From: a virus
Reading direction: 5' to 3' (one strand)
Length of the DNA: 24,277 bases
Virus record (IMG/VR): IMGVR_UViG_3300025889_018147
Span: 1 to 24,277 of that record
This document shows positions 16,360 to 22,268 of this stretch, piece by piece (the stretch's first letter is position 1; every line of letters begins with the position of its first letter). The translations under genes were made by a program, and so were the position numbers. Under the pieces are notes generated by a model. The model did no database searches, was not told where the DNA came from, and saw only the letters and a program-made list of their open reading frames with translations.

Positions 16360-17031
16360 ATGACCTTAGATCTTCATAACTTTTTTAAGTATTATGATGA
16401 TAAGAACGCCAACCACGTTGCAGCGGTTCAGTGGTTGGAGGATAATCTTCCAGAAAAATATTTGGATGACTCTCAATGTGATTGGGTGAGTATTTTTAGA
16501 ACTAAACCACCAACTCCACCAGTTCTTCCAGTACCTTATTTTAATCAGGTAGACAATTACAGAGATGCACATAGAACTTGCAACTCTTCATCGTGTGCTA
16601 TGTGTCTTGCTTTCCTCAAACCAGGAAGTATTAAAGGTGACGACGAATACGTTAAGAAAGTATTCGCAATTGGTGATACAACGGACCACGCTGTTCAGAC
16701 AAAGGTTCTGGCGGGTTATGGAGTTAAGTCACACTTTAGTTACAATTTATCTTTTGCTGATATCGATAAAAGTATTGACGCTGGGAAGCCCGTTGTTATT
16801 GGCATACTCCATAGGGGTTCTCTATCTGCACCTACTGGTGGGCATATGTGTGTCGTCATTGGTAAAACCCCAGATGGAAAAGGATACTACGTCAATGACC
16901 CATACGGATCACTAAACGATAATTATAGTGGTCCTGTTGAGAACGGCAAGAAAACAATCTATACTAAAGCAGTTCTTAAGCACCGTTGGTGTCCAGGAGG
17001 CAACGATGGATGGGGTAGGATTTTCGACTAA
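16360..17031 (+). CDS. C39-like cysteine peptidase with N-terminal LHNFF module
   Basis: The 223-residue protein has two parts. Residues 1-49 form a module (LDLHNFFKYYDDKN, AAVQWLEDNLP, CDWVSIFR) that reappears at the start of the lysozyme gene at 17130. After a Pro-rich linker (TKPPTPPVLP), residues 57-223 look like Peptidase_C39_2: VPYFNQVDN (Gln63), TCNSSSCAM (candidate nucleophile Cys74), GGHMCVVIG (His162) and YYVNDPYG (Asp180). This family cuts peptide bonds, often next to Gly or in cell-wall peptides. With the lysozyme beside it, peptidoglycan cross-bridge cleavage or virion-associated entry is plausible, but unproven. It is expressed from a perfect late promoter. Confidence 0.8.
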   Translation: MTLDLHNFFKYYDDKNANHVAAVQWLEDNLPEKYLDDSQCDWVSIFRTKPPTPPVLPVPYFNQVDNYRDAHRTCNSSSCAMCLAFLKPGSIKGDDEYVKKVFAIGDTTDHAVQTKVLAGYGVKSHFSYNLSFADIDKSIDAGKPVVIGILHRGSLSAPTGGHMCVVIGKTPDGKGYYVNDPYGSLNDNYSGPVENGKKTIYTKAVLKHRWCPGGNDGWGRIFD

Positions 17032-17152
17032 TTTTAATCGCAAAATGCTCAAGGTGATAAAAGATCTCACTGATAGTGGGAGACATGTAGAAGCAAATCA
17101 ACTGTATCAAAGGTATTTCGGAGAAGACAATGGCAAGAGTAGACCTTCATAA
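17006..17152 (+). CDS. Possible small protein between C39 peptidase and lysozyme (48 aa)
   Basis: An ATG at 17006, with AGGAGG 6 bases upstream, opens a 48-residue frame that overlaps the end of the C39 gene and the start of the lysozyme gene. The product (FNRKMLKVIKDLTDSG, RHVEANQLYQRYFGED) is amphipathic and helix-like. The overlap and the good ribosome-binding site favour a real gene. However, the AGGAGG also encodes conserved-looking residues of the upstream protein, so it may be fortuitous. ATG 17045 is an alternative start. Confidence 0.4.
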   Translation: MDGVGFSTNFNRKMLKVIKDLTDSGRHVEANQLYQRYFGEDNGKSRPS

Positions 17153-17857
17153 CTTTTTTAAGTTTTATGATGACAGAAATCCAAGTCATGTTAATGCAGT
17201 TCAATGGTTAGAAGATAATCTTCCAAATGATTATCTTGAAGATGATGCTGATTGGGCAGATATTTACAGAGGCAAGAAGTCTGCTTCTGGGTCATCTGCA
17301 CCTGCTGAAGATGTTTGCCCTCACTGTGGCAAACCACTGGGAAAGTAGAAGGGGCAGCTCCTTCTGCTGGTGCTGCCCAAACTGGAAGTGACGATGTACC
17401 TATGATGGGCATCAAGTTAATCAAAGAATTTGAGGGATGTCATTTAAATGCATATCCCGATCCCTTGACTGGTGGACTTCCAATCACTATTGGTTGGGGT
17501 TCAACTAGAAATAAGAATGGGCAACCATTCCAAATGGGAGATAGTATTACACAGGCAGAAGCAGATGAACTTCTGATTAGTCAGTGTAAGAATCAGTTTC
17601 TTCCCGCTCTCCGCAAAATCCCACATTGGAATGAAATGTCAGATGGTAAAAGAGGTGCTCTATTATCTTTTGCTTACAATCTTGGTGCTGGTTTTTACGG
17701 TGGGGATAACTTTAATACCATTACTAAGCGACTTAAGAATAAGGAGTGGGATTTAGTTCCTGACGCACTATTCCTCTACCGTAATCCTGGTTCTAATGTA
17801 GAAGCAGGTCTGGCACGTAGAAGAAAGGCGGAAGGTGAAGCGTGGAAAAAAGGTTGA
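17130..17857 (+). CDS. GH24 lysozyme expressed as a -1 frameshift fusion (LHNFF module + linker + lysozyme)
   Basis: The zero frame (17130-17348, 72 aa, GGAGAA ribosome-binding site) encodes an LHNFF module nearly identical to that of the C39 peptidase, then CPHCGKPLGK and a stop. The -1 frame continues from that point to 17857 with an Ala/Ser-rich linker and a GH24 lysozyme (EFEGCHLNAYPDP... ITIGWGST). The catalytic Glu, Asp and Thr spacing is that of T4 lysozyme (E11, D20, T26); in the fusion they are E102, D111 and T120. A slippery GGGAAAG, a 6-base spacer and a GC-rich hairpin lie exactly where a programmed -1 frameshift needs them. The fused protein would be 242 aa. An unfused lysozyme could also start at ATG 17402. 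It cleaves peptidoglycan glycan strands. Confidence 0.8.
17339..17378 (+). promoter_or_regulatory. Programmed -1 ribosomal frameshift signal
   Basis: The slippery heptamer G GGA AAG (17339-17345) is in the correct phase of the zero frame. The zero-frame TAG follows at once (17346-17348). After a 6-base spacer comes a 7-bp stem GGGCAGC/GCTGCCC (17352-17358 with 17372-17378, 13-base loop). GGGAAAG is the slippery site of the lambda G-T tail frameshift. Confidence 0.75.
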
Positions 17858-21521: not shown

Positions 21522-22268
21522 ATGAAGAAATTATTAGCATCAGTTGGACTTTCATTAACTTTAGTATTTCCTACATTTGCTAATTCATTAGAACCAAAAC
21601 AACCAACAGTAAAACCATACAGTCTCGCAGCAATGGGTTGTATGATTTTACTTGAATGTACAGAAGGTGTTGAGAAACTTACGCCAGAATCTGCTGTATT
21701 TGATAAAGAAGATTTTGCCCCATTCAGAGAAGAAATCAAAAGGATTATCTCTGCTCTGAACAAACTAGAGATCGGAGTTTATCTAGCACCTACTAGATAC
21801 TTCACTCCTAGAACGGTAGGAATTTACAAACCAAATTACAATAGGTTTTTTATTAATGAAGTTCTCCTGAGAGATGAAAGAGAATTCTTAGGAACTCTTC
21901 GTCATGAAGGATGGCACGTAGTTCAGGATGCTATGGGTGGTGGATTAGATACATCATTCATGGCACAAGTTCATCAGGATTCTGAAATCCCTGCTTGGGT
22001 AATGAAGCAAACAAGATTGACCTATGAATCTATCGGCCAAAGTCGTGCTGTTCCTTGGGAAGCAGATGCTAACTGGGCAGAAGAACAACTCAATCAGACT
22101 GCTAGATACCTTGAGATGGCTGCTGAGAGACCACTATGGGAACAGATTACACCAACTCCACTTACTAAGGATTGGTTGATTGGTTGTGGATGGATGAAAC
22201 CACAAGATGGTTTGTATCCCTATTATCCCAACAAAAAAGTTCAATACTGCACTGAAGGAAAATACTGA
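21522..22268 (+). CDS. Secreted zinc metallopeptidase-like protein (HExxH)
   Basis: The 248-residue protein has a signal peptide (MKKLLASVGLSLTLVFPTFA) and a zincin motif TLRHEGWHVVQDAMGG (His128, Glu129, His132). WEADANWAEEQL, with Glu180, is a plausible third ligand as in gluzincins. The fold around it (IYKPNYNRFFINEVLL, then the HExxH helix) resembles small bacterial/phage metallopeptidase-like proteins. Several Cys residues (40, 46, 222, 243) could form disulphides after export. It probably acts in the host periplasm or on the cell surface. The substrate is unknown. Confidence 0.72.
   Translation: MKKLLASVGLSLTLVFPTFANSLEPKQPTVKPYSLAAMGCMILLECTEGVEKLTPESAVFDKEDFAPFREEIKRIISALNKLEIGVYLAPTRYFTPRTVGIYKPNYNRFFINEVLLRDEREFLGTLRHEGWHVVQDAMGGGLDTSFMAQVHQDSEIPAWVMKQTRLTYESIGQSRAVPWEADANWAEEQLNQTARYLEMAAERPLWEQITPTPLTKDWLIGCGWMKPQDGLYPYYPNKKVQYCTEGKY

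Follow-up and report, generated by a model that had tools for sequence, protein, structure and literature searches.

A putative −1 programmed frameshift in a cyanophage lysin gene and its mirror image in related lysins

In the dnaX gene of E. coli the zero frame encodes the long protein, and a slip of the ribosome yields its truncated N-terminal part. Lysins made as two polypeptides by means of an internal start have been described as well, namely CTP1L, CD27L, Lys170, LysIME-EF1 and phi2638A; the free C-terminal domain produced from this start sets the oligomeric state and, in CTP1L, also the activity (PMC4777826, PMC9430671). The heptamers G GGA AAG, A AAA AAG and C CCA AAG are characterized as highly shift-prone in E. 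coli (PMC5009743). No frameshift-made endolysin was found in the full-text literature searched, most subscription papers being outside its reach, and the terms 'endolysin' and 'lysozyme' are absent from the accessible passages of the Atkins 2016 review.

The window, that is, the whole stretch of DNA that was analyzed, is a virus record of 24,277 bases. It carries many cyanophage genes and belongs to a T4-like cyanophage. The features of its lysin locus are the following:

16360–17031, plus strand: upstream paralogue composed of an LHNFF module and a C39 peptidase (PF13529), without a bacterial-type slip site; it serves as the negative control for the module
17120–17126, plus strand: Shine-Dalgarno-like GGAGAAG preceding the module gene (sequence)
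17130–17348, plus strand: zero-frame ORF with the LHNFF module, a Ser/Ala linker and a CPHCGKPLGK tail, the putative short product of 72 aa (sequence, ORFs)
17130–17270, plus strand: LHNFF module proper, 47 codons, common to the neighboring C39 peptidase (alignments)
17316–17330, plus strand: half-zinc-ribbon-like motif CPHCG, close to the C-terminus of the short product (sequence)
17339–17345, plus strand: in-phase slippery heptamer, G GGA AAG, invariant in 27/27 distinct loci
17346–17348, plus strand: zero-frame stop TAG directly 3' of the heptamer (in relatives TAA 20/27, TAG 7/27)
17346–17351, plus strand: 6-nt spacer TAGAAG, its length invariant among relatives
17352–17378, plus strand: putative stimulatory hairpin, GGGCAGC (17352–17358), a 13-nt loop and GCTGCCC (17372–17378)
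17345–17857, plus strand: −1-frame ORF with the VEGAAPS... linker and a GH24 lysozyme, 170 aa, the distal part of a putative 242-aa product, ending with TGA at 17855–17857
17423–17833, plus strand: Phage_lysozyme domain (PF00959; Pfam profile, E 3.3e-22)

The layout of this locus had been proposed in an earlier sequence-only reading, and it was borne out in full at these positions: the two frames in −1 register (module ORF at 17130–17348, −1 frame open from 17345 to the TGA at 17855–17857), the in-phase G GGA AAG followed immediately by TAG, the 6-base spacer and the 7-bp stem. The lengths claimed for the two products, 72 aa and 242 aa, also agree with the ORFs (72 + 170 = 242). The lysozyme expected downstream in the −1 frame was recovered by the Pfam Phage_lysozyme profile (E 3e-22, rounded) with 79.6 bits, above the curated cut-off of 22.3, and the product of this frame is thus a predicted GH24 phage lysozyme (PF00959). 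One predicted linker peptide of a long product of the window type is VEGAAPSAGAAQTGSDDVPMMGIK.

Several other genes of the window may be mentioned. A phage tail lysozyme (PF18013; 18879–19523) is a further cell-wall enzyme candidate, and an RlpA-like double-psi beta-barrel protein (PF03330; 20798–21112) possibly also acts on peptidoglycan. The window also encodes a cyanophage outer-membrane-protein-like beta barrel with an apparent signal peptide (PF24653; 13328–13687), an apparently secreted protein of 248 aa with an HEGWH motif, possibly a metalloprotease, that has no Pfam match (21522–22268), and a Staphylococcal-nuclease-like protein (PF00565; 22587–23048).

Judged from the window sequence by itself, the frameshift signal is no more than suggestive. 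The heptamer GGGAAAG occurs three times in the window against 3.2 expected, GGGAAAGTAR once against 0.10 expected, and the hairpin folding alone is unexceptional (z = −1.6). As the heptamer appears at chance frequency, we relied on comparative evidence instead.

The 72-aa ORF of the window is 100% identical in loci L001 and L002 and is conserved across 27 distinct loci. In all 27 of these loci (layout A, the window type), which are found on related IMG/VR contigs from many metagenomes, we detected NNG GGA AAG TAR, so that the alignment with related loci, proposed earlier as a check on the heptamer, gave G GGA AAG in 27/27 loci of the same layout. Next to this we scanned for the amino-acid pattern C-P-H-C-G-K-x-L-G-K, which permits any Gly, Lys or other codon. 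Among 25 distinct matches 24 were window-type lysins, and all 24 had GGA AAG followed by TAA (17) or TAG (7); the codon preceding GGA always ended in G. With GGA AAG itself invariant, all three wobble positions of tandem slippage are therefore fixed. The Gly codon located four codons upstream in the same motif is spelled GGT, GGC, GGA and GGG.

The stem behaves similarly. After a spacer of exactly 6 nt, 27/27 loci have a stem of 7 bp or more (at most 2 G-U), against 1.9/27 expected when synonymous codons are redrawn and the linker protein of the −1 frame is kept. All seven pairs of the window hairpin are kept in every relative, with compensatory changes at 6/7 pairs; the variants include GGGCAGC/GCTGCCC, GGGCAGT/ACTGCCC, GGACAGC/GCTGTCC, GCGGCAG/CTGCCGC and GGGGTAG/CTGCCCC. 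The alignment of the stem is 100% paired, with 27 double-sided cells as opposed to 7.5 in shuffles; paired cells, double-sided cells and the covariation score each exceed all shuffles. It should be kept in mind that the relatives are related to each other, and the counts given here are therefore not independent. Two dissimilar linkers, VEGAAPS... and VSSGSGASAPA..., share identical spacing and stem, and indels in the layout A linkers preserve the −1 frame. It is this conservation across relatives that makes the window signal non-random.

A frame break of this kind could in principle be produced by a sequencing or assembly indel in an ordinary fusion gene, and fusions in one frame were indeed found among the relatives. 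However, many metagenomes contributed to the 27 distinct sequences in which the identical break, heptamer, stop and stem recur, and an equivalent break is present in two sequenced versions of the phage S-PM2. These recurrent sequences, together with both S-PM2 versions, already refute an artefact, to which we give practically no credence.

It could also be supposed that the lysozyme arises by separate initiation or by termination-reinitiation at the ATG ATG at 17402–17407, the overlap of frames being accidental. Such ATG ATG codons stand ahead of the lysozyme domain in most relatives, but a Shine-Dalgarno sequence is missing at the lysozyme start in 24/27 layout A loci. One locus (L014) has no ATG, GTG or TTG at all before the lysozyme domain, and another (L033) has only a late TTG without a Shine-Dalgarno sequence. 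The linker upstream of ATG ATG stays in the −1 frame through indels, and the three fixed wobble positions and the covarying stem are contrary to separate initiation as well, which makes this origin of the lysozyme very improbable. A two-polypeptide endolysin of the internal-start type was rejected on similar grounds: no conserved in-frame start with a Shine-Dalgarno sequence was revealed, and the short product would be N-terminal here.

The locus thus presents an in-phase X XXY YYZ heptamer, a covarying structure about 5–9 nt downstream and synonymous constraint, three sequence features of the tandem-slippage class of frameshifts, and these comparative data strongly support the interpretation of the window signal as a −1 programmed frameshift (PRF). 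What upholds the frameshift proposed by the sequence-only reading is that the slip codons are invariant, the stem covaries, linker indels stay in frame and the lysozyme frame has no conserved start.

That reading had also named relatives with the lysozyme fused in one frame as a case against a frameshift. Such relatives exist, but they do not refute it, since they carry a mirror-image signal, in which A AAA AAG is followed by a stop in the −1 frame and by a stem at 6 nt. An enlarged sample comprised 180 distinct module-to-GH24 sequences, 27 of the window type and 153 in one frame (layout B). A heptamer of the form X XXY YYZ was revealed in 152/153 one-frame relatives, A AAA AAG in 148/153 and C CCA AAG in 4/153, with neither in one; L045 is a relative without a canonical heptamer.

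In the 148 sequences A AAA AAG is in phase at one fixed codon position just past the module, and the slip site is spelled GGA AAA AAG in 146/148. Codons 48–50 (GGA in 146, AAA in 148, AAG in 148) are without synonymous variation, whereas the median relative entropy over the module is 0.72. The −1 frame is closed after one codon in 131/148 (TAG 91, TAA 38, TGA 2), the remaining −1 stops being 9 or 15 codons on. A 6-bp stem with at most one G-U begins exactly 6 nt downstream in 139/148, as compared with 52.5 expected under codon redrawing. Perfect Watson-Crick stems of 6 bp were found at the 6-nt spacer in 125 sequences, and the next best spacer gave 32. The stems differ in sequence (GCTGCA/TGCAGC, GCGGCA/TGCCGC, GCTGGA/TCCAGC, GCTGCG/CGCAGC, GCGGTA/TACCGC, GCTACA/TGTAGC), and their covariation score exceeds all shuffles. 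Many, but not all, layout B sequences contain a GCGGAG-like stretch about 10 nt upstream, the distance of a Shine-Dalgarno stimulator; the Glu44 codon is GAG in 116 and GAA in 30 of layout B, versus 8 and 11 in layout A.

Lys-Lys is frequent in linkers, and the fused relatives give a complete protein without any frameshifting, so the lysine codons of layout B might be taken for a basic linker written in preferred codons. This is contradicted by the lack of any synonymous variation at three adjacent codons in 148 sequences, even though the usual Gly codon is GGT, and by the variation of the same codons in layout A (codon 48 is GGT, GGC or GGA; codon 49 is AAG or AAA). The −1 stop and the stem, which covaries and keeps a constant spacer of 6 nt, likewise oppose codon preference, which we regard as very improbable. 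The layout B signal would therefore follow the logic of dnaX, a slip giving a truncated free module; the cultured isolates DSL-LC02 and DSL-LC03 possess this dnaX-like arrangement, and their predicted free module would have roughly 51 aa and end in GKKV. The short product of layout B is devoid of the CPHCGK tail that is present in that of the window, and the free products are consequently non-identical.

Two more layouts were found in which the C39 peptidase is part of the gene. In layout C, observed in S-PM2 and several contigs, an LHNFF-C39 ORF has A AAA AAG and a stop, and GH24 lies in the −1 frame. The S-PM2 ORF (L474 779–1962 [LN828717.1]; also NC_006820.1) ends with GCA AAA AAG TAA, a complete GH24 domain is located in the −1 frame, a stem GCTCTAC/GTAGAGC begins at 6 nt, and the predicted linker peptide is VTSSTSR. 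The 'putative lysin' of S-PM2 is annotated as a 219-nt gene that starts within the lysozyme domain and misses its N-terminal part; most simply, it was truncated in the record because the frameshift was unrecognized. The S-PM2 arrangement with different stem sequences is present in L376, L377, L393, L453, L478, L507 and L547. Also in layout C, one sense codon separates the heptamer from the stop in L490 and L539, and in L534 the heptamer is C CCA AAG and the stem has 12 bp. Layout D is the mirror image of S-PM2 and was found in three ACG-2014f isolates: LHNFF, C39 and GH24 form one ORF, and the C39-GH24 linker contains A AAA AAG and a stem, the −1 frame being closed by TGA one codon past the heptamer. 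In total there are four layouts, in which the upstream part is either the module or module-C39 and the stop is in either the zero or the −1 frame. The predicted two-product arrangement is therefore family-wide, with a frame logic that reverses, a point that had been missed by the earlier reading.

Three further cases should be mentioned separately. In S-CAM7 (L476 1458–1470, L560, L561) a T8 run, in phase as T TTT TTT and followed by a strong hairpin, precedes a GH24 domain in the −1 frame relative to LHNFF-C39, and the 'lysin' gene is truncated in the record; the slippage at the T8 run could be ribosomal or transcriptional, and S-CAM7 was left out of the PRF count because the run allows the latter. 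At the end of the C39 ORF in L084 (S-SRM01) and L460, AAAAAAGCAATGA, A AAA AAG adjoins an overlapping ATG/TGA start-stop. Coupled initiation and frameshifting could both contribute to their lysozyme, and the two were left out of the PRF count on account of the overlapping ATG start. In S-CRM01 (L083 2340–2420) a −1 break near AAAGAAAAAGATGG divides GH24 in mid-domain between two ORFs of the annotation; this break may be a sequencing error, a sign of decay or another recoding site.

As a control served 187 LHNFF-C39 paralogues, which have the module in common with the lysins; in none of them was a bacterial-type heptamer found after it. The putative slip signals are thus shown to be exclusive to copies joined to GH24. 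As to the module itself, it had no match in Pfam or the PDB, and searches of PHROGs and of PDB sequences and folds gave no function. The first structural model was poor (pLDDT 64) and the second fair (78), with no match of the second in a fold search. Zinc-ribbon profiles in Pfam matched the CPHCG motif weakly, at sub-threshold scores only. The search for relatives in cellular genomes found none, and the window proteins match the cyanophage lysins of PHROG 3617 / 10051.

To follow the history of the layouts we compared trees of the two parts. In the tree of lysozyme-domain DNA the window-type sequences are scattered among the one-frame ones, and no fewer than 8 changes are required by branches with good support; a single origin of layout A was rejected on this tree (AU p 0.0006). 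The lysozyme domain closest to that of the window in the tree set belongs to the one-frame L147, with 89% identity. The tree of the short module did not reject a single layout A clade (p 0.08). The trees would be explained by repeated flips of the layout, by recombination between module-linker cassettes and lysozyme domains, or by the two together; by either route, the predicted two-product frameshift signal is retained.

The following scheme can be proposed. Most ribosomes on the LHNFF-module gene would stop at the TAG at 17346 and release a free 72-aa module. At G GGA AAG, with the hairpin 6 nt beyond it as stimulator, a fraction would slip −1 and continue into the lysozyme frame to give the 242-aa module-lysozyme fusion. 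In layout B the zero frame would produce the fusion, and a slip on A AAA AAG would reach the −1 stop and yield the free module. In the S-PM2 type the free part would be LHNFF-C39, to which the frameshift would append the lysozyme. Since an internal start cannot give rise to a free N-terminal domain, termination coupled to PRF would be the expected route. The free N-terminal module may then co-assemble with module-bearing lysins as a subunit or modulator. We infer that −1 slippage occurs at all these sites; that the free module plays such a part in LHNFF-bearing lysins is proposed with less confidence, by analogy with the free binding domains of two-polypeptide endolysins. The explanation as a whole, with the window frameshift and the reversed logic in relatives, we consider highly probable, its co-assembly step less so.

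A real frameshift could, however, merely set the dose of lysozyme, acting as a translational throttle with the free module as an inert by-product. With the layout of the window, the majority of ribosomes should halt before the lysozyme, lowering the output of the enzyme, and the frameshift data alone are compatible with dosage control. On the other hand, the zero frame of layout B already yields the full lysozyme, a slip there merely diverting ribosomes to the module; 131/148 sequences have a clean −1 stop one codon on, and both predicted products are retained through the layout changes, which suggests that the short product is wanted; and throttling could be had more simply from a weaker ribosome-binding site. 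We therefore think dosage control unlikely, though worth keeping in view. The pattern suggests that selection across the lysin family favors production of the free N-terminal part as well as of the fusion with lysozyme, with a reversible frame logic. Whether the frameshift-made module and fusion are obligatory, the repeated frame swaps keeping both and the module being a working subunit of the lysin complex, we judge evenly balanced.

The reversal of frame logic among relatives, with both products kept, makes it possible to separate a need for two products from throttling of the enzyme, which can seldom be done with single PRF cases. About 180 distinct sequences conserve the signal, as do the cultured S-PM2, ACG-2014f, DSL-LC02 and DSL-LC03, which makes it directly testable. 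Annotations would also be corrected, that of the S-PM2 'putative lysin' for example.

Comparison with known systems reveals the following. Cyanophage lysins of PHROG 3617 / 10051 consist of the same modules (LHNFF, C39, GH24) in differing orders, with no frameshift annotated. The tail chaperone G/GT of phage lambda and other G-GT sites of long-tailed phages have the same G GGA AAG and a shared N-terminus with or without a C-terminal extension; however, the window lysin is no tail-assembly gene, its slip site is abutted by a stop and followed by a stem that covaries, and its extension is an enzyme. The tau/gamma site of E. coli dnaX shares with layout B the A AAA AAG, the −1 stop after one codon and a hairpin a few nucleotides downstream, and the short product is likewise the N-terminal part of the long one. 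It belongs to a different gene, and the lysins are without a consistent upstream Shine-Dalgarno stimulator; in the window type the dnaX order is reversed, the short product being that of the zero frame and the long one that of the −1 frame. The two-polypeptide endolysins are alike in that one lysin gene gives a full-length enzyme and a free accessory domain. There the free domain is C-terminal, made by in-frame internal initiation, and the hosts are Gram-positive, whereas in the cyanophage lysin the free module would be N-terminal and made by means of a −1 frameshift.
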